DNA of 64,000 nt from Siphonodentalium dalli. Lineage: Eukaryota > Mollusca > Scaphopoda > Gadilida > Siphonodentaliidae. The stretch spans positions 2,294,001-2,358,000 of the forward strand of contig CP136061.1 in the NCBI GenBank assembly GCA_032622095.1, in the 5' to 3' direction. Of this stretch, positions 22,261 to 57,483 are shown in pieces; position 1 is the stretch's first letter, and each line of letters starts with the position of its first letter. The notes beneath the pieces were generated by a model. The model ran no database searches. It was not told where the DNA came from and was given only the letters and a program-made list of their open reading frames with translations. The translations under genes were made by a program, and so were the position numbers.

Positions 22261-22394
22261 TTTTGATTTTGTATTTCATGAACGAAACATTTCTCGAAAG
22301 TTTTCCGAATTTTGTCAAGGATAGAAACATATGGAATGAAATCGAGTCCTCCAACTTCCAGTCTCAATTTTTCCTCCAAATGCAATCGATCCAT
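22257..22394 (-). pseudogene. Start of an unidentified ORF cut by satellite junction
   Basis: An ATG at 22394, just after the capsid gene's stop, opens a 45-codon frame (begins MDRLHLEEKLRLEVGG). Its stop codon TAG is formed across the junction with the satellite, so the natural 3' part is missing. It follows the dense packing of its neighbours and is probably the first 45 codons of a longer gene of the same element. The fragment is too short for a family call. Its truncation is direct evidence that the cluster is incomplete on this side. Confidence 0.5.
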
Positions 22395-22398
22395 GTTT

Positions 22399-23703
22399 TT
22401 AATAATCTGTTATCATTTCTCGCAAACTGTTGATTTCAATTTGATTATCGAACTCAGCATAGACTATCACGTTGATCACTGAAGCTAGAGCTGCCGCAAA
22501 CTGAAGCTCTAACCTTATGTTACCGGTTTTTATAGGATGCAAATGTCCTTCCTCTGCTCCTTGGTCAGGTGTGAGGTTGTAACCCCTGAAACAATAACCA
22601 TTCATGTATTTTTCGAGATTCAAACCAAAGGATTTGTTTTGTCCAAACATACCCGAAGACTGATACAGTGATACATAAGATCTTAGGCATTGTTCTGATT
22701 CAAAGTTTGGTTCAAATGGTCGGTTATGGATGGTATGTCCGTCCTGACTAACTTCAAGTTTTCTCAGATTGAAGTGTTGGAAATGAAATGGGTTCGTTTC
22801 AATATCGCCATTCATATCTTTGTTTGATACCAAGCCTATGAAAAGTCTCTTTGGCAATTGTCCTTGAAAAGGTGATCTTCAATTTTTGATCTAAGCCCTG
22901 CACCAATAGTGAATGTTTTTACTTCAACTCTTCGAATCGGTACTTTCATATTTTTCTGTATTATTGTTTGGTTCAAGTTATTTGCTACTACTGGCATCAG
23001 CGTAATTGTACGAACATTGAAAACTGCCGTTTCAAATACTATTTTTCCGTTGGCCTGACCAATTAAAGAGAATTTTGGATTCGCTCTATTGAGACGAATT
23101 CTTATCTCAATTCCATTTGGTAAGTATTTCTCTTGTAGAAATATATCTGTGTGTAAACGACCACACAATTCTACCGTTTTACTACCTGCTATGATTGCTT
23201 GGCGAGATTTCAATCCATCATTACCACCAGCTTTAGTGTTTTCGGTGAACTGTTTAGCGGTATCAGGGTACCACATTTCTAGTGCGGCAAGTTGATTTTC
23301 TTTACATTCACCAGAATAAGCCAAGAGATTTTCCATGTAGGCTCGATAAGGATAGGTATCTCCGTGTGCCGTTACAAGTTTGTTATTTAGGTAAATATCG
23401 ATACTACTGAACATGCATTGGAAAAAAGTTGTTAATAGGCGCAATTTCATCAGTACCATCAACCAAGTTTGTTCCATCTGCTTTTGTGATTTTGAATTTC
23501 AGGTACAAATATGATTGATTTACATCTGTCCATTTTTCAGTTTGAGGCGGAATTACAAATGCTATCGGTGCGGAATTATTCAAAGAGCTAATCGGGTGAT
23601 GTTCTATCCATTGTGATTCCAACATCGTTGTCATTGTTGGTGGAACATCAGAAGCATCTAACTCGGACTTGCTGCATTCGCATGATCCATTTTGCATCAT
23701 CAT
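22399..23703 (-). pseudogene. Probable major capsid protein (F54H12.2-like), two frameshifts
   Basis: Three overlapping minus-strand frames cover one protein: 23404-23703 (N-terminal), 22836-23477 (middle) and 22399-22857 (C-terminal), about 430 residues in all. The first break coincides with a six-A run at 23422-23427. The second lies close to 22855-22870. The sequence resembles the invertebrate F54H12.2-like family, which sits in Polinton/adintovirus-type clusters. A typical motif is LPNGIEIRIRLNR in the middle part. I infer a double-jelly-roll capsid role from family and neighbours; no structure could be tested. Without repair no full-length protein would be made, unless the breaks are assembly errors in homopolymers. 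It lies downstream of the small basic protein with almost no gap. Confidence 0.68.
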
Positions 23704-23705
23704 GA

Positions 23706-24086
23706 TTAATCAAATATATCGAGAGATCGTTTTGATTTCTTTACAGGCGTTTTAATGGACTTACTTCTAACTCGTTTGCGAGAAGAATGATTTTTCAAAG
23801 GTCGCGATGATCTATTTATGCCATTTGGTGTTGACATTTTCTTTATTGTTTCCCTTCCAAAAGATTTCAATGCTTCTTTACCTTGTTTCAAAAATACTTC
23901 TTTTGGACTTTTACCATGATGAATGATATCTTCGACTGCAGCAAGTCCATGCTTGAATACTTGTTGTTTAGCAATCTGACCAATAGGTTTTAGAAACGGT
24001 ATTACTGTTCTCATTGGAGATTTGAATAGTGAACCAATTCCATTTCCATACTGTCTAGATACGCCTCTATACACGGGAATCATCAT
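23706..24086 (-). CDS. Small basic virion-like protein
   Basis: 126 aa. The N-terminus has a glycine-rich stretch, YRGVSRQYGNGIGSLF. The C-terminal third is very basic with Lys/Arg clusters (SRKRVRSKS, PVKKSKRS) that look like nuclear-localisation or DNA-binding signals. Proteins of this size and composition sit between capsid genes in adenovirus- and Polinton-related elements (pVI/pX-like core proteins); the match here is by composition and position only. Its start overlaps the stop of the upstream penton-like gene by 4 bp (24083-24086), and the capsid gene follows 2 bp after its own stop. The frame is intact. Confidence 0.6.
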   Translation of the reverse strand: MMIPVYRGVSRQYGNGIGSLFKSPMRTVIPFLKPIGQIAKQQVFKHGLAAVEDIIHHGKSPKEVFLKQGKEALKSFGRETIKKMSTPNGINRSSRPLKNHSSRKRVRSKSIKTPVKKSKRSLDIFD

Positions 24087-24907
24087 AAATACAAATTACT
24101 TCGGCGTCGGAATTGCAACTTTACCATAGACTTTCCACCAATAAACTGAATTGGTTTCCCAGTATCATCAGTTATATATACATTTATGGTATCAAAGCTA
24201 GACTTTGATACTGGTACATAATATAAGTTTTTGAATTCATGCCTAATATGTTTACCATCATGTATTCTTTTACTCTCGAATGATGTCACTCGTAATATCG
24301 GTGCTTCAACATCACTACGAATTGTAAAATCAGCAATGTCAGAATAAACAAACAATTGATTATGCTCCGCATTTAAATCAACTCCATATGGAAATGTTAT
24401 CGAAGGAGTAGCAAATGTGACAGTGTTTGATTCTGTTCTGTAACCAAGTTTATCCAAACGAGCTCTGGGGAGTACAAGACCTACTTTGGTATAACTATTG
24501 GTTGAAATTTTAACTCGTTGTTGTGCTTTGGAATATCCGATTTCGAATTCCAGTTCTGGAATCATTCTGCTTACTGTACTATCAATTACACCTTGAATTG
24601 TATCTGTCAAATTTGGTCCACCAGAATATGCTCCTTCTGGTATTTTTAATTCTATACCATTTTCTGGTTTTGAAATTACTACATCACTCATTGGTATCTT
24701 ATTCAAATATTGTAAAATTCTTGGAACAGAAGTTTTTATTTTTATTTTGCAGGCATCTCCAATAATGTTGTATGTTTCTGATGGTACAATTAGTTCAACC
24801 ATTGCAACTTCCCAAAGCTCTTTATCAATATGTATGGTTTTTGGTAATTTCACTGTGAAACAACATTGTGAGTTGGCTGGGTAAAGTGACATTGAACTAT
24901 CACTCAT
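24083..24907 (-). CDS. Penton-like single-jelly-roll capsid protein (probable)
   Basis: 274 aa, intact. Begins MSDSSMSLYPANSQCCFTVK; it is rich in alternating hydrophobic/polar strands with no transmembrane segment or enzyme motif, as expected of a beta-sheet virion protein. Size and location next to the capsid gene fit the minor capsid (penton) protein of Polinton/adintovirus-type elements. The phrase LWEVAMVELIVPSE near residues 32-45 and the C-terminal FIGGKSMVKLQFRR recall this family. Function is inferred from context. It is preceded by the two-TM gene (stop at 24928) and overlaps the basic protein gene by 4 bp. Confidence 0.6.
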   Translation of the reverse strand: MSDSSMSLYPANSQCCFTVKLPKTIHIDKELWEVAMVELIVPSETYNIIGDACKIKIKTSVPRILQYLNKIPMSDVVISKPENGIELKIPEGAYSGGPNLTDTIQGVIDSTVSRMIPELEFEIGYSKAQQRVKISTNSYTKVGLVLPRARLDKLGYRTESNTVTFATPSITFPYGVDLNAEHNQLFVYSDIADFTIRSDVEAPILRVTSFESKRIHDGKHIRHEFKNLYYVPVSKSSFDTINVYITDDTGKPIQFIGGKSMVKLQFRRRSNLYL

Positions 24908-24927
24908 GAGAGTTATGTAGAATGAAT

Positions 24928-25185
24928 TCAGTTTTTCTCAGTATTTTTCAATAATTTCAGTCCAGGTGTTGGTAGAATATAACCTAGAGAACTACTTAGA
25001 AGAATAAGCCACAATTCTTTGTTTGCGCTCTGGATACTAATGTGTACAATAGATGTAATTAGTATGATATAAATAATAATTATCTGCGTGAAGTAGGTGA
25101 CTTGGTTCTTAGCAACTTTTTCACCACAGAACTTAAATTGTGACGGTTCATCGAGATTAATTCAAACTGAATGATTTTCCAACAT
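24928..25185 (-). pseudogene. Small two-membrane-segment protein, one in-frame stop
   Basis: An 85-codon frame from ATG at 25185 to TGA at 24928, interrupted only by TGA at 25162-25164 (codon 8). After a Cys-Gly-Glu-Lys motif (FKFCGEKVAKNQVTYFTQ) come two hydrophobic segments: IIIIYIILITSIVHISI, and LWLILLSSSLGYILP. Small proteins of this kind recur beside the integrase and capsid genes in related invertebrate clusters, from my memory of the family. The role may be in the membrane, but that is unknown. Translation could also begin after the stop, though no nearby ATG is in frame. It lies between integrase and the penton-like gene. Confidence 0.6.
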
Positions 25186-25198
25186 GGTAAATTCTGTT

Positions 25199-26284
25199 TT
25201 ATACTAAATTTGAAGCTGGGATCCAACTGTCAAACTTTTTTGGATATCCAAGCCAATGAACTTTAATTTCTTTTACTGTTTTACCACCCACTCTTCTCGT
25301 TCTTTTATCAATAACTGATTCTATTTCATACACCTTACTGTCTTTTATATGCTGGATTTCATGTTTGTAGAATGATCCAGCAATCTCTTCACCATCAAGA
25401 TCAGAAACTTTGTATGTTACTGGATTAGTTTTACAAATTATATCAACTTTGAAAATGTCACGAGTCCAGTTTGGTAAATAACCCTTTTCAAATGTTCTTT
25501 TGGTTTTGTTGATACGAACCAAGTCACCCACTTTCAGTGTAGATTTTCCTTTTTTATTCCCTGTTCCATATAGATTTTTGGAAATTTCAGCTTCAGTTTT
25601 CAAAGTAACTGCCGACGGTTTCGATTTTATGCTGCGGTGATAACTATTGTTGTAAGAATCGACTAGGGGCTGTAAAACATCAATATATCTTGAAGTTTTA
25701 TTGTGTGTGAAATACTTCCACATACGAGTTTTTAAAGTTCTTTGAAATCGTTCGACAATACTTGCTTTAGTCTCTGGATTCTCAGTTGTGAAGAAATTAA
25801 TGTTTTCTGATCGCAGAAATTTCAAAAACTTTTCATTTTTGAATTCAGAACCTTTATCAGCTTGAAACGATTTTGGTTTACGTTTTGAAGATTTCAAATT
25901 TTTCCTCAATGATTCGATCAAAGTTTGTCCAGATTTATCGTGGATTGGCACTACCCACGCAAATTTTGAAAAAACGTCTATCACACACAACATATATCTG
26001 TAATTATCATTATGTTTTTTCAAATTCTGAAGATCAGCTAAATCTGCCTGCCATTGAATATCAATCCCAGCCACAATAGTCTTTCTACGTTGGAATTTTT
26101 GAATTATTGGTTTGTGTAAAGTATATGTCGACTGACCTTACAACCATTTCTTCACATCTATGAGTTTAATTTTTTTATTTTGCTTTTTCGCTTCATCAAA
26201 AAGCTTCTTTACACCGCCATAACTTCCAACTTTCTTCGGATTATAGAAAATTTTAGATAACTGCTCATCTAGTATGGATCCCAT
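25199..26284 (-). pseudogene. Polinton-type integrase with chromodomain, one in-frame stop
   Basis: A 361-codon frame from ATG at 26284, broken only by TAA at 26138-26140 (codon 49); the remainder (25199-26137) is open. The N-terminal part before the stop holds a conserved NPKKVGSYGGVKKLF-like region. The catalytic core has Asp in WQADLADL, Asp in FQADKGSEF and Glu in IVERFQRTL, with 34 residues between the last two. The C-terminal about 45 residues form a chromodomain (VYEIESVIDKR...VHWLGYPKKFDSWIP). It resembles the F54H12.3-like integrases of Polintons, which insert the element into host DNA; the chromodomain may direct it to chromatin. The start overlaps the upstream 146-aa gene by 16 bp. 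Confidence 0.88.
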
Positions 26285-26709
26285 TGTGTTTTTTCTGCTT
26301 TAATACCCTTTGGTGTCAACCTATCTGCTATTTTAGTTTTTGAATGTCTTGCTTTTATACCTTTCATTGGTGTGAATCGTTGAGAATCAAATCGTTTTGG
26401 TGTTATGCTTTGTACCGGAGTTTCAAAATCATCATCCAAATCATCTTTCAAATGTTTTTTAATCCAAAGCCAGCGGTTTCTGTTCCCTACAAAATATTGA
26501 GGTACATTAAGCTCGCTCAATCCTTGTGAAAAGGTTTGCCAACCTGTTGGTTCGAAACCATTTCTTTGTCGTACAATATCATTGAGGAGATCAACAATAT
26601 TTGATCCTCTAATAACTTTCTCACCATATTTTAATTGTCCATGTTCATCAAACTTCATTTGTGGATGTTTTGAAATCAGTTGTAAAAGTTGTTCAGCTTT
26701 GTTTCTCAT
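26269..26709 (-). CDS. Conserved small protein of the capsid cluster
   Basis: 146 aa, intact. The first about 80 residues are a compact region (LLQLISKHPQMKFDEHGQL, GSNIVDLLNDIVRQRNG) that I recognise as recurring in invertebrate clusters with F54H12.2-like capsid genes. The tail is basic and repeats TPK/TPMKGIK motifs. No enzyme motif or membrane segment is seen. It starts 2 bp after the upstream 99-aa gene stops and overlaps the integrase start. Function unknown; a virion or DNA-binding role is possible. Confidence 0.6.
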   Translation of the reverse strand: MRNKAEQLLQLISKHPQMKFDEHGQLKYGEKVIRGSNIVDLLNDIVRQRNGFEPTGWQTFSQGLSELNVPQYFVGNRNRWLWIKKHLKDDLDDDFETPVQSITPKRFDSQRFTPMKGIKARHSKTKIADRLTPKGIKAEKTQWDPY

Positions 26710-26711
26710 CT

Positions 26712-27011
26712 TTAACGGATATACTTTCTTATCACATCCCTATGATGATGATTAAATGGTTGTTCTGTTTTCGGGGTTGAAATAGCTCTAACTGATTTTT
26801 GAGAAGTTTTCAATTTGTGTAAAGTTGTACCATATAATTGAACCTTCTCAGATTCTGACAAATTTTGATCAGAAACTGAATTCAATTCTCTGCTTAGTTT
26901 TGAAATAGTCGTAATTTCAGGATTAGGTGGTAATTTCGGATTAGTTAGACTCATTCTCCATTTTTTAATGTCATCCAACATTTTGAAGGGAACAGCGACC
27001 ATTTTCTTCAT
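26712..27011 (-). CDS. Conserved small protein, function unknown
   Basis: 99 aa, intact. A helical middle region (ISKLSRELNSVSDQNLSESEKVQLYGTTLHKL) follows a short proline-rich stretch (NPKLPPNPE). The same architecture occurs in related clusters as far as I recall. It ends in basic and histidine residues. It is packed with 2-bp gaps between the 73-aa and 146-aa genes, suggesting shared transcription. No catalytic motif. Confidence 0.58.
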   Translation of the reverse strand: MKKMVAVPFKMLDDIKKWRMSLTNPKLPPNPEITTISKLSRELNSVSDQNLSESEKVQLYGTTLHKLKTSQKSVRAISTPKTEQPFNHHHRDVIRKYIR

Positions 27012-27013
27012 GT

Positions 27014-27235
27014 TTAACCGCGAAGTATTCCAGCGAGTGCTTTACCAAGCAACGGTGCTAGCATAAGAAGTGGTAAAAAACCTCCTTTCTGGTTTAAAAT
27101 TAGTTTTTTTCGTTTCAAAGATGTTGATTTACTTGCAAGTTCTCTGAGATGTCTACACCTCGGACGAAGTTTGCGCTTCTGAGCTTCTGTTAGTTTTACA
27201 TTGCCTTTTAAAATATTTTTACAGCATTCTGGCAT
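27014..27235 (-). CDS. Small basic/hydrophobic peptide (GGFLPLL type)
   Basis: 73 aa, intact. The first 50 residues are strongly basic with a conserved pattern (LRELASKSTSLKRKKLIL); the end is a glycine-rich hydrophobic helix (GGFLPLLMLAPLLGKALAGIL). The larger protein at 27392-28027 contains the same two-part pattern, so the two are probably paralogues. Basic plus amphipathic architecture suggests membrane or capsid-interior interaction like small adenoviral core/lytic proteins; this is inference. Its ATG directly follows the TGA of the 39-aa ORF. Confidence 0.58.
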   Translation of the reverse strand: MPECCKNILKGNVKLTEAQKRKLRPRCRHLRELASKSTSLKRKKLILNQKGGFLPLLMLAPLLGKALAGILRG

Positions 27236-27355
27236 TCAATCAATCACTCTCTTTGGGGCATCTTTTATCATTTTTTTCCGAAAATGAGTTGGTGCCTGAT
27301 TCATAGCCATTACAAAACTACCATATTTTTTAATCAGTGGAGTTCTTTTCGCCAT
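27236..27355 (-). CDS. 39-aa basic ORF (MAKRTPLIKKYG...)
   Basis: ATG at 27355, TGA at 27236-27238, 39 aa. The sequence is basic (MAKRTPLIKKYGSF, THFRKKMIKDAPKRVID). Its stop abuts the ATG of the 73-aa gene, and it begins 37 bp after the 211-aa gene ends, matching the tight packing of the cluster. That packing, and the good fit in the gap, support it as real despite its size. Function unknown. Confidence 0.5.
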   Translation of the reverse strand: MAKRTPLIKKYGSFVMAMNQAPTHFRKKMIKDAPKRVID

Positions 27356-27391
27356 CTTTACTCTTCAAAGGTTGAATGTCAAATGACTGAA

Positions 27392-28027
27392 TTACTTTTT
27401 ACTTTTACGTTTATTAAAATTACGATCAAATGCCATCAAAGCTAATTTCGATGGGTTTGAAAGATTCATCATTTTTGAGTATCGTTGAACCAACGGGTAA
27501 TGTTCTGCTTCTTGAATTGATGGAATTGGTTGCGGACCATTATCGTTAAGTGGTTGAAATCTAGCAAATGTAGAATTTAATCCAGTAGAATATAATCTAG
27601 CTGGAGTAGTTCGCTGTGCACTTGTAGAATTTACTCTGACTGGACTAGCTCGCTGTGCAATCGTAGAATTTACTCTGACTGGACTAGCTCGCTGTGCAAT
27701 CGTAGAATTTACTCGAGTAGCATTTACTCTATTTGATCTAACTCGTGCAATTGATTTATTTTCTTTTTGTCTGAGAAGACTTCTGATCAAAACTCCACCG
27801 AGAAAACCACCTCCACCAGTTTTTAAAAGTATTTTCTTTTTTGAATCGATATGAGTTCTACTGTCAGCTATTTTCTTCAGCTCTTTTTTGTGTTTTTGCA
27901 GGAATGTTCGTGTCTGCTTTGGAAGCTTTAAGTGATCATCAAGTATTAATTTAGCGATAGTCGAAAATACACTCAAGACTGCTTCATGCGACTCCATGAT
28001 TGGAAATGAAATATTATGTTGATACAC
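27392..28027 (-). CDS. Basic/hydrophobic protein with tandem 13-aa repeats
   Basis: 211 aa (or 201 if the ATG of MESHEAVLS is used). Residues about 40-85 hold a basic helix then GGGGFLGGVLIRSLL, the same pattern as the 73-aa protein. Next comes a 13-residue repeat (RVNSTIAQRASPV) in about three copies plus degenerate ones, encoded by a 39-bp minisatellite at about 27590-27715. The Arg/Ser/Thr-rich repeat suggests a flexible, possibly DNA-binding, tail. It begins just after the ATPase gene. Function unknown. Confidence 0.6.
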   Translation of the reverse strand: MYQHNISFPIMESHEAVLSVFSTIAKLILDDHLKLPKQTRTFLQKHKKELKKIADSRTHIDSKKKILLKTGGGGFLGGVLIRSLLRQKENKSIARVRSNRVNATRVNSTIAQRASPVRVNSTIAQRASPVRVNSTSAQRTTPARLYSTGLNSTFARFQPLNDNGPQPIPSIQEAEHYPLVQRYSKMMNLSNPSKLALMAFDRNFNKRKSKK

Positions 28028-28033
28028 TTATCT

Positions 28034-28735
28034 TTATACCGATGAATATATTACCGCACCTCGATCGTCATTTGTGAGCCACCGATGGAAAATATCAGTT
28101 CTAAGTCTCAACGATTTATCCGTTTTAGTGTGAAAATCGAGTAGTAAATAACCATGATTGGTTGAAGTTGCATCATCATATGCCTGCATTAAATGAGGTA
28201 TTTGCATTTGAGAGGCAAGAATTTTTATTTGGCCTTTATCACGCACACTTTGAAATAATACCATGTAATGTGTATTCAAACTCAAAGTTCTACTCGCTTT
28301 AGATTTCTGAAACATGTTTTGGGTTATGTAAATAACAGACGTATTTCTGTGATGTCCTTTTCTTGTAAACCACAACATAATTTTTTCTTCATCTTTACCA
28401 CCTAGCATGTCATCAAAAACGATGAGGTGCGGTAAGTGTGTGTCATCGACAAGTTCATTGTCATCATCCGGTATTCCATTTATAAATTGAATATTGTGAA
28501 ATTCTTGCATCTGACTATAGGTATTTTGCCATTCTTTGTAACACCAAACGACTTTGTATGGAACAGGTTTGAACAAGTCATCTTTATATTCGATTAATTT
28601 CTTAACAAAATCTGTTTTACCACAACCACTTGGTCCCGATATGAAAATGTTACAGGGATGTTTGAACAACAATGATTCGTCCATCTTTACCCTGAGACAG
28701 ATCATGTAAGACTGATTAGGATTGTTCGGAATCAA
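28034..28735 (-). CDS. DNA-packaging ATPase (A32/FtsK-HerA-like)
   Basis: 233 aa, intact. Walker A is GPSGCGKT at residues 34-41; Walker B is LIVFDDM at 104-110. A further conserved STOP-like polar segment, VIYITQNMF, follows, as in packaging ATPases of the A32 family. These enzymes pump genome DNA into capsids of Polintons, adintoviruses and large DNA viruses. The start may be the internal Met at residue 18 (MDESLLFKHP), nearer to the conserved domain. The ORF overlaps the upstream 161-aa gene by 20 bp, another argument for the internal start. Presence beside capsid genes is strong evidence that the element once made virus particles. Confidence 0.88.
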   Translation of the reverse strand: MIPNNPNQSYMICLRVKMDESLLFKHPCNIFISGPSGCGKTDFVKKLIEYKDDLFKPVPYKVVWCYKEWQNTYSQMQEFHNIQFINGIPDDDNELVDDTHLPHLIVFDDMLGGKDEEKIMLWFTRKGHHRNTSVIYITQNMFQKSKASRTLSLNTHYMVLFQSVRDKGQIKILASQMQIPHLMQAYDDATSTNHGYLLLDFHTKTDKSLRLRTDIFHRWLTNDDRGAVIYSSV

Positions 28736-29201
28736 CCTTTTTTATTTTTAATGAAGAATCACCATAACTCCATACTATTCCAAATGTCCATACGAGTTCA
28801 TAATCTAAATCTGAAATAGGTCTAGTGTTTTTTACAATATAATCAAAAGACACTTTTTCTTCAAATAACTTTTCAACAGTGAAAATTGTACATGGTTCTC
28901 GGAGAATAATGTATCCATATATTCTCGTCACCTCTTCAAATTTCAAAGTTTTTTCATTGAGAATCCTGTCTTGATATTCAGCAAAGCGAGTAAAATTATT
29001 TCCAACTAATTCACGAATTGCGTTTATTTCGTTTTTAGGAACACCATGAAATATCCAATAATCTGAAAACATTTGATCCAATATATCCATTAAGAAATCA
29101 GTTTCAAATTCTGATCTCTCAATCAAACATCTCAGACGACTCTGTCCCTCAGAGAAATGTCCGTTCAGCAAAGTCTCCATTATAATTCTACTTTCCCTCA
29201 A
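28716..29201 (-). CDS. Unidentified 161-aa protein
   Basis: 161 aa, intact, acidic and rich in Phe, Ile and Glu; predicted mostly helical. No signal peptide, membrane segment or known motif was seen. A likely start is the Met at 29180 region (METLLNGHFSEG), giving about 154 aa. It is the second ORF of the cluster; the histone-like stem-loop lies 36 bp upstream, so it needs its own promoter or a shared transcript. Function unknown. Confidence 0.55.
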   Translation of the reverse strand: MRESRIIMETLLNGHFSEGQSRLRCLIERSEFETDFLMDILDQMFSDYWIFHGVPKNEINAIRELVGNNFTRFAEYQDRILNEKTLKFEEVTRIYGYIILREPCTIFTVEKLFEEKVSFDYIVKNTRPISDLDYELVWTFGIVWSYGDSSLKIKKVDSEQS

Positions 29202-29218
29202 AAACCATACAGAGCGTA

Positions 29219-29260
29219 TCTTTCGTGAATTTTAAGTGGCCCTGAAAAGGGCCGTTTAAA
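29219..29260 (-). promoter_or_regulatory. Histone-mRNA-type 3' stem-loop with downstream purine element
   Basis: Read on the minus strand, 29253-29238 is GGCCCT TTTC AGGGCC: a 6-bp stem and 4-nt loop matching the metazoan histone stem-loop consensus (GGYYYU UHUH ARRRCC), followed by AC. Ten nucleotides later is CACGAAAGA (29227-29219), like the histone downstream element that pairs with U7 snRNA. It lies 20 nt after the stop codon of the 126-aa ORF, the normal place in histone mRNAs. The flanks extend the palindrome (TTTAA/TTAAA). Function is inferred. Confidence 0.7.
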
Positions 29261-29272
29261 ATAATATAAAAA

Positions 29273-29653
29273 TCATTTCTTTTGTTTCTTCATCACTGTT
29301 AAATCTGTCCCGATTGATCCAAATGTTGCTCGCTTCGTAGGTTCTTTCTTGAAACCATGTACCTCAATTGGTATGTAAATCGTGTGAGGTTTCAAGTTGA
29401 TTGTACATTCAGTCGGTTTTTGTGTTAATTGTTTTCGTAAATCCTTCATTTCCTGCCAAATATTCCGTAACAATTTTGTCTGTTCTTCCCATTGTGAACT
29501 GTTGATAACTTGGTATATAACAGGTTGAGTCATTTGTTGTGTTTTCACCGGCGGTGTATACACTGGTTGTTGATCCGTTCGCGGATACACCATTGGTACC
29601 TGTTGCTGTTCCACACGTGGCGTCACATTTCCTGCATACAGTGGAGTCGACAT
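29273..29653 (-). CDS. Unidentified Pro/Gln-rich first ORF of cluster
   Basis: 126 aa, intact. Residues 1-50 are rich in Pro, Gln, Val and Tyr and look disordered. Residues 52-75 (WEEQTKLLRNIWQEMKDLRKQL) could form an amphipathic or coiled-coil helix. The C-terminal part has beta-like and basic segments (MKKQKK at the end). It is the most upstream gene. Its stop is followed within 20 nt by a histone-type stem-loop, so its mRNA may end there. Its sequence is not a histone. Function unknown. Confidence 0.55.
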   Translation of the reverse strand: MSTPLYAGNVTPRVEQQQVPMVYPRTDQQPVYTPPVKTQQMTQPVIYQVINSSQWEEQTKLLRNIWQEMKDLRKQLTQKPTECTINLKPHTIYIPIEVHGFKKEPTKRATFGSIGTDLTVMKKQKK

Positions 29654-30062
29654 TTGCGTTGTTGCAGGAACATGGTCGTACTGTACATCAATAGTCTTGA
29701 GAAATTCCGTTACTGGATCAATGATTCAAAATAACGTTAACGTTACAATTTACGCATCTAATGACGTTAACATTTTTCGAGGATCAAGTATATGGGACGC
29801 GCGGGCCTCGTTGACGACGTCATGCGTATTTCACCAAATTTCTCCGAACGTCAAATCAGATGTGTTTCTTTTTTGTCAAAAACATCATATTTCTATGAAT
29901 AAAACACCGATTTGACTCGGGAAAATTTTATCTGTACCATTTTACCATTATCTTATAACATATTTCACTGAAAGGTAACTTCTGCAAGTGCATTTTACAA
30001 CGCTATCGTCTTCGAATTTATTCGAAGACTTTCGCTTTTGTTAAATATGCACTGGTAAAGTA

Positions 30063-30196
30063 ACACAATTTACCAACACATCTATTTTTTCTCGGTATTA
30101 TTCTAAGTTCAGTTAGTCCAGCGAAGGGGAGCGCCCTTCGCTTACCACACTGACATTAGAATCCGAGAAAAAATCGATACATTGGTAAATTGTGCT
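30063..30196. repeat. Imperfect palindrome, about 65-bp arms
   Basis: The left arm begins ACACAATTTACCAA and the right arm ends TTGGTAAATTGTGC. Matching inner blocks are TATTTTTTCTCGG / CCGAGAAAAAATC and the perfect central hairpin CGAAGGG-GAGCG-CCCTTCG. It could be two element termini fused head to head, a replication hairpin, or a small foldback insertion. Confidence 0.75.
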
Positions 30197-30926
30197 CTTT
30201 TCTGTCAAAAAAATCCCTTCGAAGCGCTCACCTTACTCATTGGAATCTAACACAACCTCTAGACCGATCCTGGGCTGTTACTCTGGCCCAACCCCTCGCT
30301 CGATGTCACTCTGGCCCATGGACATACATAACAGGTTTGTCCAGGTCATATTATTATTCCTCACAGGTAGCTCAATTACTATAGTATATGCTGGTTCACA
30401 CATATATTAATAATCGCACTAATAGAAGTAATTTACTCGTGAGTAATCCATCACTATTTTATGCAATACTTATTCCCTTAATATAGTGCGTACAGATTGT
30501 TCATCTTGTTGTCATAGCTTTGAATATACAATATTATTCTGGTCATTGTAAATAAATCATAGCATTTTATACTGGTCTCTACTTTTGTTATGCTGGTCAA
30601 CTCATATGGATTTGGGTGTTGTATTTATCATGCTCACAGTGTAAGTTATAATCTAGTCCGCCAGTTAGTAACACTCAGGTAATACCAGGTATATAGACAA
30701 CCCAGGTGTACTACGTCCAGCTTACTCGTGAATATTGATGTCGTCATCCAGCCATGCAGTGTCGACGATCCGGTCGTTGTACCGCCCTATCCACTGCTCG
30801 TCAGATGTCTTGGTTGACACGTTACTCATCCATTCAGAGATGTCAGATCTGGTCGTTGTACTTCACTGTCAGTCCAGCTAATAACATGCATACGAGCCTA
30901 TCCTACCAGCTAACCTATATTGATAT

Positions 30927-31103
30927 AGGTCAGTTCGTGAACGAGGTCAGAGGTCACAGTGCCAGCTACCGCTACCAATCTGATACATAGTTATTACAGA
31001 CATGGGTATACAGTTACATACCAGCCATCCTGTAGGTATATAGGTCACGTCATGAATGAGGTCAAAGGTCAGAGTATCAGCTACCGCTGCCAATCCGATA
31101 CAG
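30927..31103. repeat. Two-copy direct repeat, period 115 bp
   Basis: AGGTCAGTTCGTGAACGAGG at 30927 and AGGTCACGTCATGAATGAGG at 31042 begin two related blocks of about 61 bp, each ending in CAGCTACCGCTRCCAATCYGAT. The intervening sequences are more weakly similar, so this is a degenerate 115-bp tandem duplication. Confidence 0.7.
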
Positions 31104-31325
31104 ATATATATACCAACTGGCTTATGCATATTAATGATATGGTAATTATGTAATGAGTTGACCAGTGGTCCATGGTATGGCACTCCCTCAGTATAACTAT
31201 AACGCTACCACTTGTAATTGGGAAACAGTTAGTTTCACGTGTGGCATTGGGGTATATATTATGTCAGGTTTCCGCTCGGCCTATTTAGGACATTTATATA
31301 GGTACCCCTCCCCCAGCACGCCACA

Positions 31326-34300
31326 CTGACATACTGAATCAGATGACATACGACTAAACACATAATCAGAAGTGAACATCGAGGCTTATATAAAGGTCTC
31401 TAATAACAGTATGCTGGCATACTGAATCAGATGACCTACGACTAAACACATAATCATAAGTGAACACTGAGTCTTATATAAAGGTCTCTAATAACAACAT
31501 GCTGGCATACTGGATCAGATTACGGCTAAACACATAATCAGAAGTGAACACTAAGGCTTATATAAAGATCTCTAATAACTCCATACTGACATACTGAATC
31601 AGATGACATACGACTAACACATAATCAGAAGTGAACATTGAGGCTTATAAAAAGGTCTCTAATAACAACATGCTGGCATACTGAATCAGATTACGACTAA
31701 ACGCATAATCAGAAGTGAACACTGAGACTTATATACAGGTCTCTAATAACAGCATGCTGGCATACTGAATCAGATGACCTACGACTAAACACATAATCAG
31801 TAGTGAACATTGAGGCTTATATAAAGGTATCTAATAACAGCATGCTGTCATACTGAATCAGATGACCTACGACTAAACAGATAATCAGAAACGAACATTG
31901 AGGCTTATATAAAGGTCTCTATTAACAGCATGCTGGCATACTGCATCAGATTACCTACGACTAACACATAATAAGAAGTGAACATTGAGGATATATTAAG
32001 GTCTCTAAAAACAATATGCTGGCATACTGAATCAGATGAACTACGACTAAACTCATATCCAGAAGTGAACATTGAGGCTTATATAAAGTCTCTAATAACA
32101 GTATGCTGGCATACTGAATCAGATGACCTACGACTAAACACATAATCAGAAGTGAACATTTAGGCTTATATAAAGGCCTCTAATAACAGCATGCGGGCAT
32201 ACTGAATCAGAAAACCGGCGACTAAACACATAATCAGAAGTGAACATTGAGGCGTATACATGTATAAAGGTATCTAATAACAGCATGCTGGCATACTGAA
32301 TCAGATGACCTACGACTAAACACATAATCAGTAGTGAACATTGAGACTTATATGAAGGTCTCTAATAACAGCATGCTGGCATACTGAATCATATGACATA
32401 CGACTAAACACATAATCAGAAGTGAACATTGAGGCTTATATAAAGGTATCTAATAACATCATGCTGGTATACTGAATCAGAGGACCTACGAATAACACAT
32501 AATAAGAAGTGAACATTGAGGCTTATAGAAAGGTCTCTAATAACAGTATGCTGGCATACTGAATCAGATGAAATACGACTAAACACATAATCAGAAGTGA
32601 ACACTGAGGCTTATATAACGGTATCTAATAACAGTATTCTGGCATACTGAATCAGATGAACTACGACTAAACACAAAATCAGAAGTGAACAGTGAGGCTT
32701 ATATGAAGGTCCCTAATAACAGCATGCTAACACACTGAATCAGATGACCAAGGACTAAAGACATAATCAGAAGTGAACATTGAGGCTTATATAAAGGTCA
32801 CTAATAACAGCATGCTGACATACTGAATGAGATGACCTACGACTAAACACATAGTCAGAAGTGAACATTGAGGCTTATATAAAGGTCTCTAATAACAACA
32901 TGCTGGCATACTGAATCAGATGAACTACGACTAAACACAGAACCAGAAGTGAACAATGAGGCTCATATAAAGGTCTCTAATAACAGTATGCTGGCATACT
33001 GAATCAAATGACCAACGACTAAACACATAGTCATAAGTGAACATTGAGGCTTATATAAAGGTATCTAATAACAACATGCTGGCATACTGAATCAGATTAC
33101 TACTAGACACATAATCAGAAGTGAACACTGAGGCTTATATAAAGGTCTCTAATAACTGCATGCTGACATACTGAATCTGATGACATACGACTAACACATA
33201 ATCAGAAGTGAACATTGTGGCTTATATAAAGGTCTCTAATTACAGCAAGCTGGCATACTGAATCAGATGACCTACGACTAAGCACATAATCAGAAGTGAA
33301 CATTGAGGCTTATATAAAGGTCTCTAATAACAGAATGCTGGCATACTGAATCAGATGACCTGCGACTAAACACATAATCAGAAGTAAACATGATGGCTTG
33401 TATAAATGTCTCTAATAACAGCATGCTGGCATACTGAATCAGATTATCTACGACTAAACACATAATGAGAAGTGAATAATGAGGCCTATACACGTTTAAA
33501 TGTCTCTAATAACAGCATGCGGGCATACTGAATCAGAAAACCAGCGACTAAAAACATAATCAGAAGTGAACATCGAGGCGTATACATGTATAAAGTTATC
33601 TAATAAAAGCATGCTGGCATACTGAATCAGATGACCAACGACTAAAAACATAATCAGAAGTGAACATTGAGGCGTATATAAAGGTCTCTAATAACAGCGT
33701 GCTGGCATACTGAACCAGATGACGAAACACATAATCAGAAGTGAACAGTGAGGCTTATACATGTATAAATGTCTCCAATAACAGCATACTGGCATACTGA
33801 ATCAGATGACCAACGACTAAACACATAATCAGAAGTGAACATTGAGCCTTATACATGTATAAAGGTATATAATAACAGCATGCTGGCATACTGAATCAGA
33901 TGATCAACGACTAAACACATAATCAGAAGTGAACATTGAGGCTTATATAATGGTCTCTAATAACAGCATGCTGGCATACTGAATCAGATGACCTACGACT
34001 AAACACATAATCAGAAGTGAACAATGATGCTTATATAAAGGTATATGATAACAGTATGCTGGCACACTGAATCAGATGACCTACGACTAAACACATAGTC
34101 AGAAGTGAACATTGGGACTTATATGAAGGTATCTAATAACAGAATGCTGGCATACTGAACCAGATGACCTACGACTAAACACACAATCAGAAGTGAACAT
34201 TGGGACTTATATAAAAGGTATCTAATAACAGCATGCTGGCACACTGAATCAGATGACCTACGACTAAGCACATAATCAGAAGTGAACATTGAGGCTTATA

Positions 34301-34647
34301 TAAAGGTCTCTAAAAACAGCATGCTGGCATACTGAATCAGATGACCTACGACTAACACATAATAAGAAGTGAACATTGAGGCTTATATAAAGGTCTCTAA
34401 TAACAGCATGCTGGCATACTGAATCAGATGACATACGACTAAACACATAATCAGAAGTGAACATTGAGACTTATATAAAGGTCTCTAATAACAGTATGCT
34501 GGCATACTGAATCAGATGAACTACGATTAAACACATAATCAGAAGTGAACGTTGAGGCTTATAAAAAGGTCTCTAATAACAGCATGCTGACACACTGAAT
34601 CAGATGACCTACGACTAATAAGAAGTGAACATTGAGTCTTATCTAAA
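31326..34647. repeat. 88-bp satellite array, right block
   Basis: About 38 monomers of the same family, more diverged than the left block. Some have a 6-bp insertion giving CTTATACATGTATAAAG (for example near 32251, 33591 and 33763). The block ends in a truncated monomer before CTAAAATATGGATTG. Minus-strand ORFs here are repeat by-products. Confidence 0.95.
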
Positions 34648-35633: not shown

Positions 35634-38600
35634 ATCCAAGATGACGGCCAAAATGGCCACCATAAATAAAAAATCGCCGAAAATCGCCGATTTTAACATC
35701 AGTGAACATTTATTGTCATGAAAACTCCACACCTGCTTACTATTGTGAGTTGGGAACACTTAGGCGAAGAACTTTGCTTGTACCATATCCAAATAAAAGT
35801 CCCCCAAATCCAAAATGGCGCCCACAATGGCGGACATATTTTGAAAAATCACCGAAATTCCCTCATATTCACATCATTGGGCATTATTGTCGAGACAACT
35901 CCACCCATGCTTACAATTGAGTTGGAAATACTGAGGTGAGGTAATTACATCACATTTCATGCAAGAAATTGTTTTCCAAATCGAAGATGGCGGCCAAAAT
36001 GGCGACCGAAATTTGAAAACAAGTCTACATTCCTTTACTTTCTTACGATGGGCGTTATTGTTTCGCGATTTCTATCCACCATTACATGTTGATATGGAAT
36101 AGTAACATGAAGTATTCATTCATTCGGGTTTGGCAATTGATACTCACAGCCAAGATCGCTGCTAAATTGGCGTCTAGAAATTGAAAAGAAATCGATAATT
36201 TCACATATTAATTTCAACTTTTTGTCATAATATCGGTATGTATCCTCGTATCCTTCTGGAAAGATGAAAAAACACCATTAATATCGCGATGTGGCATTTC
36301 GAAATCCAGTCTCCACTTAGCGCCGATAATGGCCGTAAGCGTAGGTGCGCCGAATAGTTATATCAGAACAATTACCTGATAACAGATTCTGATTTGCCAC
36401 GTCACGTCCATAATTATCTGGACCAGCTTCCATTTCTTTGTCTGATAAATCTAGGTCGCTCACACCGACAAAGTATTCACCACTTCCTGGGAGTAGGGTC
36501 CCTCTAATCATAACGTTTCAAACAATTCATTTTCCGGTGTCTAGCTTACGATTTTAAATATTTGCTAAATATTATATTTGTCCGTCATCTTGAACTAGGA
36601 AGGCATATGGCCGATGAGTACAAGCTTACATAAGGTCATATCTATGTATGTGTCTCATACCCCATGGGATAACGACATGTACACCTGGCGAACCAGTTAG
36701 CTAGTCACTTCTCAATAGATGGTTCGTCAACACACACTCAGCGAACGCATTGGCATATGTGGACAACATCGACAGTGTTTCGAAGGTTGCTAGCTGTCTC
36801 ATTCCATTGGACAGATGTCTATTGGCTAAAGAGAAGACCATAGTGTACAGACTACCCACACTTCTTTACCATTACCATTATCCGAAGCAAACTGTGTGAC
36901 GCCCCGCAGTTGTCTCGTCGAATATCTCCCAGCAGACAAGAACAATGCTCGCGGTGCTAGTTTGTGGACATGCGCCATGATAGTGGGAATAAAATGGGCC
37001 ACTGTATACACCACACCTACACCTGGTGTATGTTTAATATATCGAATGTCATGCGTGTCGGTTTTATTTGGTGTGGTAAGATTGTATTTCCACATCCGTT
37101 TCGAAGCCTTTCTGATTCAACTACGTACACTTTTGTCTGGATAATACTATGCTAGCCTCCCTCAAAACATGTCTTTATAGCATGAATATATGCGTGTTTT
37201 GTTATCCTCTCTCGCGGTTAGTGTCAGTATGTGGGCGGTATTATTCAAGAAAATGTCAGGAACTGTTGTGCATTTATTTCACTATGTATTTAAAGAACAA
37301 TTTACAGTCTCGATGGCAATGGCTGTGGACGTTGGGGAACGCGACCTTTATGATCATATAGCTTTATATATATAACTTTAGAATATAGTAGTTAATGTCT
37401 CGTGCAGGAAATGGTCGCAATGGTGATGTTACCAAGAAATCACTTGGTGTACCAACGTTTGTTGAACTGAATGCAAGAGCTCATCAACGTAACATTCCTC
37501 TGGATGTACTTCCCGTTGAACATTTCACCCTTTTGTTGATGGCATTTGTACTTTCTTGAACCATACCACCCAGCGTGAGTATGACATACAAATGTATCAA
37601 CCAACTGTCAAAGGTATCGCCTTTAAGACTACACCCAGTCTTGGTGGGGCTTATACAACAGTAGCCAATGGCATACTCCTGGTCCAGTTGTTTAAGAACG
37701 GCTTCCGAACGGATGGGAACATACAATCTTAGCATACAAGTAAAGCAAAGCCACACATGAGATCCTGTCTGAATCTAAAACATGACAAAATAAGGGGCGG
37801 TGTAGTCATGGTCCAATTTCATTTCAACTATCATGACACATACCCAAAAACTAGCACCGTGTGTATTGTTATCATCTGCTTGGATCTGTTCGGTGAGACG
37901 ATTGCTGGACGTCAACAAGCTTGTTCTTATGATCATGTTCAATGAGTTTGGGTATGTTATGCATTATGGTCTTCTACGCCTTAGCAGAAATGCATCCGTC
38001 AACTGTCGGGCTTTCAACATTCGAAGCCATGTACAGAAGTTGTCCGGGTACGTCAGTGCATTAGATGAGTATGTGAATTGATGAACCATATATTGAGAAG
38101 TGGCTGTTTGGGAAGATCACCAGGTGTGCACGTTGTTATCCCCATTAGGCCACCAAAGCTGACAATACGCAGATAGATAGGTCCTTCTGAAAGCTAGTAT
38201 ACGCATCGACCGAATACCTTTATAGTGTATCGCACAAGATGACGCATATACCCCATATATAGCATCTGAATTATACCATGAGCTATACCACGAATGCAGC
38301 TCGCTAAGAATTCCAAGCTTTCGAAACAAACACGTGAGCTGAACACCGGCATATGTATTGTTTGAAACATTCCGATTAGTGACACCCTTCTACAAAGAAG
38401 AGTAATGAACTGTTGTTGTGAGTGAGATAGATTAATCTGACGAAGAGACGGAAACGAGTCTAGATAATGTTGAATGTGGCAATTCAGAATAAGCTCAGGT
38501 ACTATTGTTTTGATTCTTGGAAGTCATAATATGACTATTCGGCGCACCTATATACGGTTACGGCCAGTATGAGCCCTTAGTGGAGAATGGATTTTGAAAT

Positions 38601-39284
38601 ACCACATCGCGATTGTGAGTTTTCATCCTTCCAAAAGGCTACGATTTACATTGGAACTAATAGATGGCTTATATTATGTACCGTTTCGTTTATAAAAATC
38701 AATATTATGACATAAAGTTGAAATTAATATGTGATAATATCGGCTTCTTTTCAATTTCTGCCCGCCAGTTTGGCCGCCATATTGACTGTGAGTATCACTT
38801 ACCAAACCCTAATGAATACTTCATACATATCAACATGTAATGGTGGATAGAAATCGCGAAACAATAAGGCCCACCCTAAGAAAGTAAAGGAATGTATGCG
38901 TATTTTCAAATTTCGGTCACCATTTTGGCCGCCATCTTCGATTTGGAAAACCACTTCTTGCATGAGATGAAAGGTAATTACTTCACCTCAGTATTTCCAA
39001 CTCAACTGTACGCATGGAGGGACAATCGACAATAATGCCCAATGATGTGAATATGAGGGAATTTCGGTGATTTTTCAAAATCTGTCCGCCACTGTGGGCG
39101 CCATTTTGGATTTGGGGGACTTTTATTTGGATATGGTACAAGCAAAGTTCTTCGCCTAAGTGTTCCCAACTTACAATAGTAAGCAGGTGTGGAGTTGTCA
39201 TGACAATAATGCTCACTGTTGTTAAAATCAGCGATTTTCGGCGATTTTTTATTTCTGGTGGCCATTTTGGCCGCCATCTTGGAT
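35634..39284. mobile_element. Foldback-like element: 3.65-kb degenerate palindrome
   Basis: The left half is the reverse complement of the right half. Tie points: 35634 with 39284, 35981 with 38940, 36345 with 38547, 36956 with 37855, and 37079 with 37730; the centre is near 37.4 kb. Outer arms (about 730 bp) are best conserved; inner parts are more diverged. Within the outer arms a motif like AAGATGGCGGCCAAAATGGC recurs about every 170-180 bp (35637, 35810, 35984, 36152). No transposase is encoded; short ORFs in both arms mirror one another and are not genes. It could be a nonautonomous foldback transposon. Confidence 0.75.
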
Positions 39285-39954: not shown

Positions 39955-41361
39955 ATGGCGTCACAGATTTCAGAGGAAGTTATGTTGAAGATACAGGCTG
40001 AGATATTGGAATTGACAGTTCGGATAGAGGAGTTGAAGAGAAATAGTGAAAATAGTTATGATAATAATTACAGCACTGATGATTATTACAGAAATGATAA
40101 TTATAACAGTGGTTATAACTCTTACTCCAGACGGTGTGTGCAGAGATATCGGAATAGGAATCGCAGAAAGCAGTATACTGAGAGAAGCGATAATGCTCAT
40201 TATTTTCAGAAGGAGTCAGATAATGTTTCAGATGAGAGAAATGATTATAGTAATCACACAAATGATAGGTTACAAGGAGAGTATGTATCTGGTAGATACA
40301 CCGGATGTTGGAAATGTGGTGATTTAACGCATAAAGCATTTGGTTGTAGGAAAGGTGGATACTATCGCTACTATGATAGAGATAAATGTTTTCGTCCACA
40401 GGATAGATCCCGGAGATTTATTAACAAATCTCAATTTGTTAATGATTCCAGTAAGGAACATTGTATAAATGGAAATGCTACAGAGTCAGATATTATTGTT
40501 TCAGGTTACAATACTAAGGCTCTTGTTGATACAGGTTCGACTTGCTCCACAATTTGCGAGCAATTTTACAGCACTTTCTTGAAACATATTCCATTGCAGC
40601 CCTTGTCTGTTATACTTAATATAGAGTGTGCTGATGGCAAGAAACTTCCTTACCTTGGATACATTCAGTGTCCTATTACAGTTCCTTCCTTAGGACAAGA
40701 TTCCAGTAAAGAGTTCATTTTTCTTGTAGAGCCAAACAGTTCTTATAACATGTCAGTGCCAGTTTTGCTAGGAACTAATATTCTTTCAGAACTCATGCAG
40801 TTGTGCAAAGATGCACATGGTAACAGGTTTTTACAGAATGCAAACTTGTCATCATCTTGGTTCATGGCATTCAGATGCATGATTTCTAGGGAGAAAGAAC
40901 TTGCTAAACACAACTTTGTTCTAGGTCATGTAAAGTCTGCTGAGAATACTCATGTTATTCTCCATCCTAATACTAAGAAAGTTGTTACTGGTTTTATTGA
41001 TCATAAGATTCCTTACCAACCCACATGTGCTATTTTACAGCCTATTCCAGATGATGAATGGTTCAAATTTTTAGAGATAGGTCCATATATTGTGAAATAT
41101 GATTTCAAGAGCACTGATACTGTTGATGTTCACTTGTCAAATATTTCTTCTAGGACTATTATAATAGCACATAACTCTGTTATTTGTCAGGTACAGCCAG
41201 TCTCTGTTGAGCAAGATATTGAAACCTCCACAGGTTCAGAGACTACTTCTTCATTTCTTGATAAAATTACTATGGATGTTTCTTCTCTTGATGATGCAAA
41301 GGATATATCTGTTGCATTGAATCTTATCAAAGAGTTTTCAGATGTTTTTTTCACAGCATGA
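39955..41361 (+). pseudogene. Gypsy element 1: Gag zinc knuckle and aspartic protease
   Basis: 468 codons. The N-terminal 110 residues are polar and rich in Asn, Tyr, Arg and Ser. A CCHC knuckle, CWKCGDLTHKAFGC (CX2CX4HX4C), lies near residue 120. The retroviral-type protease active site is ALVDTGSTCSTI near residue 193. The frame ends in TGA 10 codons after a T7 run (41345-41351), while reverse transcriptase continues in the +1 frame. Since protease and RT normally share one polyprotein in such elements, the T-run change is probably a disabling indel. The unusually short Gag lacks an obvious capsid domain. Ty3/gypsy family, clade uncertain. Confidence 0.82.
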
Positions 41362-42490
41362 TCTTGACTTAGGTTTTTACAGTGCAGTTAAACATAGGAT
41401 CGACATGTGTGATTCTACGCCTTTCAAGGATCGTCCGAGATGTTTACCTCAAAGCATGATTGATGAAGTGAGAAATCATCTTCACCAATTGTTAGCTGCC
41501 GGCATTATACGCCGATCTCACAGTCCATATTCTTCTAATGTTGTTTTAGTTAGGAAGAAGGGTTCAAATGACCTTCGTATGTGTACAGATTTTAGAATTT
41601 TAAACAAACGCACTATTCCAGATAATTATGCACTCCCTAGGCCTGAAGACCTTTTTGATTACTTAGCAGGTGCCAAGTACTACTCAGTTCTCGACCTCAA
41701 ATCTGGTTTTCATCAATTGGAGATTGCAGAGGAACACAAGGAGAGAACAGCTTTTACTGTTGGAGGTCTAGGATTCTATGAATGTAATAGATTAGCATTT
41801 GGTTTGAACAATAGTCCTTCTAGCTTTCAGAGAATGACGGAAGACTGCCTCGATGGTCTTAACAGGAATATATGTAATATTTATGTTGATGACGTCATTG
41901 TATGGTCAAAATCTGTTCCAGAGATGTTGGAGCGACTTAGACTTGTTTTTGACAGGCTCAGAGAATGCGGTTTGAAACTGGCCCCAGCAAAGTGTAAATT
42001 TTTCATGCGCCGTGTCTCATATGTAGGCCATGTAGTTTCAGAGAAAGGTATCGAGACAGATCCTGCGAAAGTTGACAAAATTGTCAACTGGCCAGTTCCC
42101 AAGAACTCTGATAAATTGCGATCATTTCTTGGCTTTACAGGGTACTACAGAAAATATTGTCCAAATTTGTCCAGGATTGCTAAGCCCTTGACAGATTTAC
42201 TTCCCCCTACAAATACAAAGAAGCCAAAGAACAAGGTTAAATCCTCTTTTACAGGGAAATGGAAATGGGAGCATGAGCAGCAGTCTGCTTTTGATACTTT
42301 GAAAGATCGTCTTTCTAATCCCCCAATTTTAGGTTACCCCGATTACAGCAGGCCCTTTGAAGTCCATACTGATGCGTCCCGTCATGGTTTAGGTTGTGTC
42401 CTTTACCAAGAGATCGATGGCGTGAAGAGAGTTATTGCGTATGGCAGCCGAGGAACCACAGCAGCAGAACAAAATTACCCAGCACATTAG
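41342..42490 (+). pseudogene. Gypsy element 1: reverse transcriptase and start of RNase H
   Basis: 382 codons. RT motifs are all present: SPYSSNVVLVRKK, LRMCTDFRILNKRT, YYSVLDLKSGFHQ, LAFGLNNSPSSFQR, the catalytic YVDD at about 41883, and the thumb/connection LRSFLGFTGYYRKY. RNase H begins at FEVHTDASRHGLGCVL and is stopped by TAG at 42488-42490. In the same frame RNase H continues after the stop (LEFLALKW...VVYTDNNPL), so this is a nonsense mutation. It copies element RNA into DNA when intact; here it is inactive as encoded. Confidence 0.92.
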
Positions 42491-56290: not shown

Positions 56291-56397
56291 ATCTGAACGC
56301 TAATCACAGACACAACGTGAAGCCAGAAGAAGAACAGTGTGAACAGAAACAGTGTGGGAAAATTCGCAAAACGTGAGTCTAATTGTTTGTTATCATA

Positions 56398-57483
56398 ATG
56401 GCTACCCAATCTACATCTGCCGGCGTTCTCGCCCCATTGACAGAGTCTATCAATTCTCAAATTGCTGCAATGGCCATGACTACGGTGACACAGGTAGTGA
56501 CGTCATTTGACGGGGACCCCACGAAATACCATGGGTGGGTCAAGTCGATAGAAAAATGCGCAATCCTAACCGGCGCTAACGAAGCAAAGAAGCCCTACAT
56601 GGCATTCCAGTCCGCGACAGGCCCCGTTTCAGATTTTTTACAAAGATATTTGGCCACAAACCCGGACGCCACGTGGCAAGATACGAAAACCGAATTATCT
56701 AGTCGATTTGCCGAAATAAATGACAATCAATTCGCCTTTTCGATGCTAAGAAAAATCAAGCAAAAACATAACGAAAACTTACATGTGCTTGCCGAACGAA
56801 TCTTGGAAATCGCGACGGTGGCATATCGAGATCAGCCAGGCGGGATCAACTCGGTCGAAGGCCAACTCGTAGGATTTTATATTGACGCTTTAAGAAGCGA
56901 CAGTTTGAAAATGAAGTTGATAAGGGATGCGCCAAAAACACTAAAAGCGGCAGCCGAAATCGCCATGCGGGAAATGGGGATCCGACGGGTATTCAACCTA
57001 CGAACGGGCCGCGAAAATTACAACGAAAACGAACCGGAAGCAATGGAAATCGATAGTTTCAGAAACAAACGCGCGAGGGCGACCTGCGATATATGCGAAC
57101 GCGACAACCACACGACCCGAGAACACCGATCACGCCCGAGACAGGTGCATGTCGAAGCGGTGGTTAAACCACGAACAGTCGAATGTTGGACGTGTCAAGG
57201 TGACCATTTCGCTCGCGACTGCCCCTTTAAGACCGAAAACCGAAGGCACGTATCTTGCTGGGTTTGCGAAGGTAATCACTTGGCTAGAAATTGCCCCTCT
57301 AAATCCGGAGATTCGAAGCACAAGCAGTGGAACGCGCCAGTAACGCCACCTAGGGAAATCCGCCGAGATCAGCCGAACCGACCACGTGACATATCCCATG
57401 ATACACCGCGACACAGCCGGAGATATCCGACATTAAACGAACCACCACGAATGATGACCCCGCCCACATATGCAAAAAACTAA
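56398..57483 (+). CDS. gag: Gag of gypsy element 2
   Basis: 361 aa from the ATG at 56398, which has A at -3 and G at +4; an in-frame upstream codon at 56383 is less likely. Residues about 30-210 form a helical capsid-like region (FDGDPTKYHGWVKSIEKC, then LSSRFAEINDNQFAFSMLRK) typical of Ty3/gypsy Gag. Three zinc knuckles follow: CDICERDNHTTREH (CX2CX4HX4H, residue 230), CWTCQGDHFARDC (263) and CWVCEGNHLARNC (287), the latter two with CX2CX3HX4C spacing. The C-terminus is basic and proline-rich. It packages element RNA into particles. It ends at TAA right after the frameshift heptamer. Confidence 0.92.
   Translation: MATQSTSAGVLAPLTESINSQIAAMAMTTVTQVVTSFDGDPTKYHGWVKSIEKCAILTGANEAKKPYMAFQSATGPVSDFLQRYLATNPDATWQDTKTELSSRFAEINDNQFAFSMLRKIKQKHNENLHVLAERILEIATVAYRDQPGGINSVEGQLVGFYIDALRSDSLKMKLIRDAPKTLKAAAEIAMREMGIRRVFNLRTGRENYNENEPEAMEIDSFRNKRARATCDICERDNHTTREHRSRPRQVHVEAVVKPRTVECWTCQGDHFARDCPFKTENRRHVSCWVCEGNHLARNCPSKSGDSKHKQWNAPVTPPREIRRDQPNRPRDISHDTPRHSRRYPTLNEPPRMMTPPTYAKN

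Follow-up and report, generated by a model that had tools for sequence, protein, structure and literature searches.

The element and its surroundings

We analysed a 64-kb stretch of DNA (hereafter, the window), in which an 88-bp satellite occupies positions 2-22261 (approximately 253 copies) and resumes at 31326-34618 (approximately 37 copies). The 9.06-kb segment between these blocks is embedded in the array, with no target-site duplication obvious by eye at the two element/satellite junctions, and all of its recognised genes lie on the minus strand. The segment and its main genes are:

22262..31325, minus strand: Polinton/adintovirus-like remnant, 9.06 kb, inside the 88-bp satellite, recognised from the ATPase, the integrase and the repeats
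22399..24907, minus strand: presumed minor and major capsid ORFs, the presumed major capsid split across several ORFs in different frames (from the ORF list; identity presumed)
25199..26074, minus strand: rve integrase with a C-terminal chromodomain (rve, E = 3e-11; Chromo, E = 4.1e-07)
28034..28705, minus strand: A32-type packaging ATPase (Pox_A32, E = 7.7e-07, 29.3 bits, cutoff 22.8)

In the protein collection, 207 sequences are related to the ATPase at E <= 0.001; among the 120 of these that were listed, one is named by its source as a protein from a MAG of Candidatus Thiodiazotropha, a group of symbionts of lucinid clams, which may point to a marine invertebrate as host. The A32-type packaging ATPase, the chromodomain rve integrase and the location of the ORFs on one strand are shared with Polinton/Maverick elements and adintoviruses, whereas the element differs from them in its decay, in the absence of PolB from the 12 ORFs scanned in the segment (which may be truncated) and in that no terminal inverted repeats were seen. 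An excerpt of PMC11071296 lists an integrase with a chromodomain among the traits of adintoviruses.

The ORFs at 22399..24907 are presumed to encode capsid proteins. Pfam searches on pieces of them and a PDB sequence search on one piece gave no usable result, nor did fold prediction: for the double jelly-roll (hexon-like) major capsid protein of the group, the model of the 274-aa ORF had a mean pLDDT of 33 and was unusable for fold search. The capsid label is therefore presumptive. The original prediction had described a capsid-bearing mobile element; the mobile element stands with the ATPase and the integrase, whereas the capsid part gained no usable family, PDB or fold match.

A single copy of the element was seen, and it is decayed. 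None of the longest 25 of the 32 inverted-repeat pairs (at least 16 nt) joins the edges near 22262 and 31325, for which reason we term the element a remnant only. This result, together with the splitting of the presumed major capsid gene between frames, marks the copy as decayed and probably truncated.

A 201-aa ORF of the element (27392-27997) matches Pfam NAD_binding_4 over residues 60-123 (E = 1.3e-05, 24.9 bits, cutoff 20.1), possibly spuriously through a glycine-rich stretch; within the ORF, a 39-bp unit is repeated in tandem and in frame (3.3 copies, 27585-27714). Further along the window lies a large foldback (35634-39284) of nested inverted repeats, four pairs of which measure 77-197 nt with a complementarity of 83-98%; units resembling AAGATGGCGGCC are abundant in it. 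Two reverse-transcriptase retroelements are located at 39955-42490 and 56383-61712, the latter with Ty3-type gag, RT, RNase H and integrase, and a LINE-like remnant with an Exo_endo_phos endonuclease domain (45837-46583) occupies 44747-46583 on the minus strand.

The stem-loop and the gene in front of it

The part of the segment upstream of the ATPase gene deserves a closer description. It contains, in the order of the coordinates:

28716..29180, minus strand: ORF154, the next ORF downstream of the stem-loop, its ATG 57 nt past it (from the ORF list)
29213..29258, minus strand: match to the Rfam covariance model RF00032 (Histone3), model positions 1-46 of 46, 33.8 bits
29219..29227, minus strand: CACGAAAGA, candidate histone downstream element (HDE; U7 snRNA pairing site) with the purine core AAAGA (from the sequence, the 9-mer count and an excerpt of PMC7026596)
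29228..29237, minus strand: spacer ACTTAAAATT, 10 nt between the stem and CACGAAAGA
29238..29253, minus strand: histone-type stem-loop GGCCCT-TTTC-AGGGCC, 6-bp stem and 4-nt loop (from the sequence, the RF00032 match, the consensus count and folding)
29273..29653, minus strand: ORF126, a 126-codon non-histone ORF directly 5' of the stem-loop (from the ORF list and codon usage)
29654..29722, minus strand: 23-codon in-frame extension of ORF126 without an ATG, with coding-like codon usage

The stop codon of ORF126 (TGA, 29275-29273 on the minus strand) is followed by 19 nt and then by GGCCCTTTTCAGGGCC at 29253-29238, which is read directly between the flanks AAAC (5') and AC (3'). The letters and coordinates of the stem-loop had been given correctly in the original prediction, as had its sense orientation relative to the adjacent gene, the minus-strand stem-loop lying 3' of the ORF126 stop; the distance from stop to stem was to be corrected, from 20 to 19 nt. 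The exact fit to the metazoan histone stem-loop consensus that had been claimed is also found: GGYYYTTYTNARRRCC, which we take to be the degenerate 16-nt form of this consensus, is matched at 29253-29238.

The predicted U7-type element is likewise in place, CACGAAAGA being purine-rich and lying at 29227-29219, 10 nt past the stem, i.e., at U7 distance. The 9-mer differs by one mismatch from CAAGAAAGA, which is presumably the sea-urchin form of the HDE. Only 6 of the 18110 element positions on both strands, CACGAAAGA included, hold a 9-mer within one mismatch of CAAGAAAGA, so that finding one 10 nt past the stem is unlikely by chance.

With the metazoan histone 3' end (RF00032; SLBP/U7) the signal shares the GGCCCT/AGGGCC stem, the TTTC loop, an A-rich 5' flank, an AC 3' flank, a purine-rich AAAGA element downstream and nearness to the stop codon. 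It differs in the non-histone ORF upstream, in the adjoining mobile-element genes, in a possible AU outer stem and in the bases after the stem, which are ACTTA here and ACCCA in histone mRNA. The H3 mRNAs of Caenorhabditis elegans end in AACGGCCCTCTTTAGGGCCACAT, as given in an excerpt of PMC1924863, with the same stem, similar flanks and a different loop. According to a section of PMC7026596, the purine core AAAGAG pairs with CUCUUU of mouse U7 and the U7 snRNP cuts 4-5 nt past the stem; the cut would here be expected after ACTT or ACTTA, within ACTTAAAATT.

The codon usage of ORF126 is coding-like. Together with its extension it scores 0.16 bits per codon, within the range of 0.08-0.35 obtained by a leave-one-out calculation for nine further ORFs of the segment, and the 23-codon extension on its own reaches 0.22 bits; the latter possibly belongs to the gene as a 5' portion that is joined by splicing or has suffered damage. 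No protein family or solved structure was matched by ORF126 above chance, its homologue search returned no candidates and that of the extended form three, none with E <= 1, and the predicted fold of ORF126 with its extension (mean pLDDT 41) is uninterpretable. Queries with H2A, H2B, H3 and H4 gave in the window only tblastn matches of E >= 0.58, the best of them in the satellite and the sole one at the end of ORF126 with E = 9.7; a histone remnant in the window was rejected accordingly. The family scan, the homologue search and tblastn thus agree with the statement, made beforehand, that the gene 5' of the stem-loop is not a histone.

These results bear on the idea of a passive fossil, in which a stem-loop and HDE from a replication-dependent histone gene came by recombination or retro-copy to lie beside an unrelated ORF, with no role in the element. 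Such a fossil would be expected to have a hairpin that fits the histone consensus perfectly, and an Rfam match that spans the HDE region as well; moreover, the element is decayed and ORF126 is not established as one of its genes. Since the four core histones left nothing better than E = 0.58 in the window and the signal sits where a functional one would be expected, 19 nt past the stop codon of an ORF that is open and coding-like, we regard this origin as unlikely.

That ORF126 is an element gene, and its transcript the element's 'first', is plausible. Against a firm assignment stand the missing homologue, the single decayed copy, the lack of an edge-linking pair among the 25 longest inverted repeats and a third-position G+C of 0.37, a little higher than in the other ORFs of the segment (0.21-0.36). 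The 92 nt that separate the stop codon of ORF126 from the start of ORF154 contain neither AATAAA nor ATTAAA. From ORF126 to the 274-aa ORF, the gaps between successive listed ORFs of at least 90 aa (the integrase ORF counted from 26074) are 92, 10, 36, 380, 2, 194 and 291 nt. Three of them (194, 291 and 380 nt) are wider than that behind ORF126 and, by eye, hold shorter or broken ORFs, so the width of the 92-nt gap is no argument for the signal.

The same neighbourhood admits another use of the hairpin, as a binding site for SLBP or another protein in a longer ORF126-ORF154 transcript, for translation control or RNA packaging, and not as a cleavage site. The stem-loop stands 57 nt before the ORF154 start, with ORF154 and the ATPase close behind on the same strand, and an excerpt of PMC6827988 offers a precedent in loop 27 of PSTVd, whose sequence is identical to the histone hairpin loop and whose roles are replication and trafficking, not 3' cleavage; unlike the signal of the element, it is without the extended stem. 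An HDE-like element at a fitting distance favours cleavage, and we consider this use quite improbable.

Strength of the match

In the 64-kb window GGYYYTTYTNARRRCC is matched once, with both the 6-bp stem and the 4-nt loop satisfied. Shuffling gave a mean expectation of 0.01 matches per window (one of 100 shuffles held one), and a second-order Markov model gave 0.020 for the whole window, 0.0014 for a single strand of the element and, once the flanks AAAN and AC are required as well, 5.9e-5 for the window. The covariance model RF00032 is matched with E = 2.4e-6 in a scan of 26 kb against all 4227 Rfam families, and with E = 2e-7 when 2.2 kb are scanned; of the seven Rfam matches in the 26-kb scan, the second best reaches E = 1.5. 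The score of 33.8 bits lies 0.2 below the curated gathering score of RF00032, which is 34, so that an Rfam scan in gathering mode reports nothing. Folding of the stem-loop RNA gave a z-score of -4.3, with none of 200 shuffles equally stable.

A chance match would draw on that score just below the cutoff and on the choice of a single site in a single window by a reader seeking oddities. It would have to produce a core expected only 0.01-0.02 times, an E-value of 2.4e-6 over all Rfam families in 26 kb, and a position on the sense strand just past a stop codon; a coincidence of this kind is very improbable. On the level of sequence there is good support for a genuine match of this signal to the metazoan histone 3' end, with chance very unlikely.

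A 7-bp AU outer stem can lengthen the hairpin, whereas histone flanks are usually unpaired. A comparable extension was obtained in 850 of 20000 flank shuffles, at 250 of 8982 element positions and at 6 of 91 similarly AT-rich positions. The extended stem was considered as the mark of a different palindrome and rejected as not significant (850/20000 flank shuffles).

Other palindromes exist upstream. An imperfect palindrome of approximately 145 bp occupies 30057-30201, where the element is non-coding towards its end, with arms at 30057-30095/30163-30201 and 30100-30128/30134-30162; it may represent an inserted foldback or a structure related to replication. Two more hairpin-forming stretches upstream of ORF126 are located at 29833-29930, which matches a microRNA precursor model weakly (E = 0.27), and at 29999-30038. 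With palindromes also present at 29999-30201, what is rare in this region is the histone consensus and not the hairpin per se.

This distinction matters for the possibility that the structure is a terminator hairpin of a generic type, or a palindrome at the end of an mRNA, that resembles the histone hairpin by accident. Mimiviridae mRNAs end at hairpin-forming palindromes, are cleaved there by a viral enzyme and are polyadenylated, according to the opening of the abstract of PMC4402537, and they share with the element a hairpin at the mRNA 3' end. The AU stem that can extend the hairpin and the palindromes at 29999-30201 would suit such a terminator. However, among the distinct hairpin sites found with a stem of 6 bp or more, 4 or more of them G-C pairs, and a loop of 3-8 nt, GGCCCTTTTCAGGGCC is the only one located where a listed ORF ends. 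The element thus shows a histone consensus that is sequence-specific and follows a single ORF, and the loop, stem order, flanks and HDE-like 9-mer agree with this consensus far more closely than would be expected of a random hairpin. We therefore hold a generic terminator to be distinctly unlikely.

Relatives of the element were sought in collections of contigs, which may leave out records of the window's own genome. Among viral contigs, the ATPase query gave 1 stretch fitting the peptide pattern, the ATPase profile 82, the integrase query 1, the 274-aa ORF 4 and the presumed capsid piece 7, and among contigs of prokaryote genomes the ATPase profile gave 61; none of them was confirmed by tblastn. 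The ATPase found no match in annotated phages. Scans for the stem-loop gave no hits in viral contigs in one scan and three in another, and four in prokaryote contigs; all seven were judged chance hits, none having a CACGAAAGA-like downstream sequence by eye. In the searched papers on Polintons and adintoviruses, no histone-type 3' end is described for the group, from which the element differs in bearing one. Where the histone stem-loop or SLBP was sought in combination with Polintons, transposons, viruses or non-histone genes, the titles, abstract openings and term counts among the papers listed report no such signal either. The nearest precedent of mimicry found is the viroid loop identical to the histone loop, with another function (PMC6827988, in excerpt).

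Proposed histone-type processing of an element transcript

Overall, with somewhat better than even confidence, we read the locus as a histone-type 3' end behind a non-histone gene in a Polinton-type remnant. The signal works like a histone 3' end on paper and is not assigned as a curated member of RF00032, as its score is below the gathering score and its context is not that of a histone gene. Where the original prediction proposed histone-type processing, the signal itself is borne out, with sequence, structure, flanks, HDE, orientation and distance from the stop all fitting. The subsequent steps, namely processing by SLBP and U7, the lack of poly(A), S-phase timing and a benefit to the element, are what we infer from it.

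A Polinton/adintovirus-like element may have acquired or evolved the histone-type 3' signal. In the host nucleus, SLBP would then bind the GGCCCT-TTTC-AGGGCC hairpin and the U7 snRNP would base-pair to CACGAAAGA, while cleavage 4-5 nt past the stem would be the work of CPSF73. The product would be a short, non-polyadenylated mRNA, the accumulation and translation of which would track S phase. The downstream genes (ORF154, the ATPase and others) would in that case depend on a separate promoter or on transcripts that remain uncleaved. With a genuine histone-type processing signal in place, the ORF126 mRNA would be cleaved through SLBP and U7, without poly(A) and linked to S phase. The full proposal, in which the element ends a non-histone mRNA of its own via the host SLBP/U7 pathway, poly(A)-minus and tied to S phase, so that the protein is made during host DNA synthesis, is put forward tentatively, at somewhat less than even confidence.

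If true, a mobile DNA element with a complete histone-type signal would be a natural exception. It would also represent a simple route by which a gene of a selfish element could be coupled to the DNA synthesis of its host, and poly(A)-selected RNA data would miss such element transcripts.
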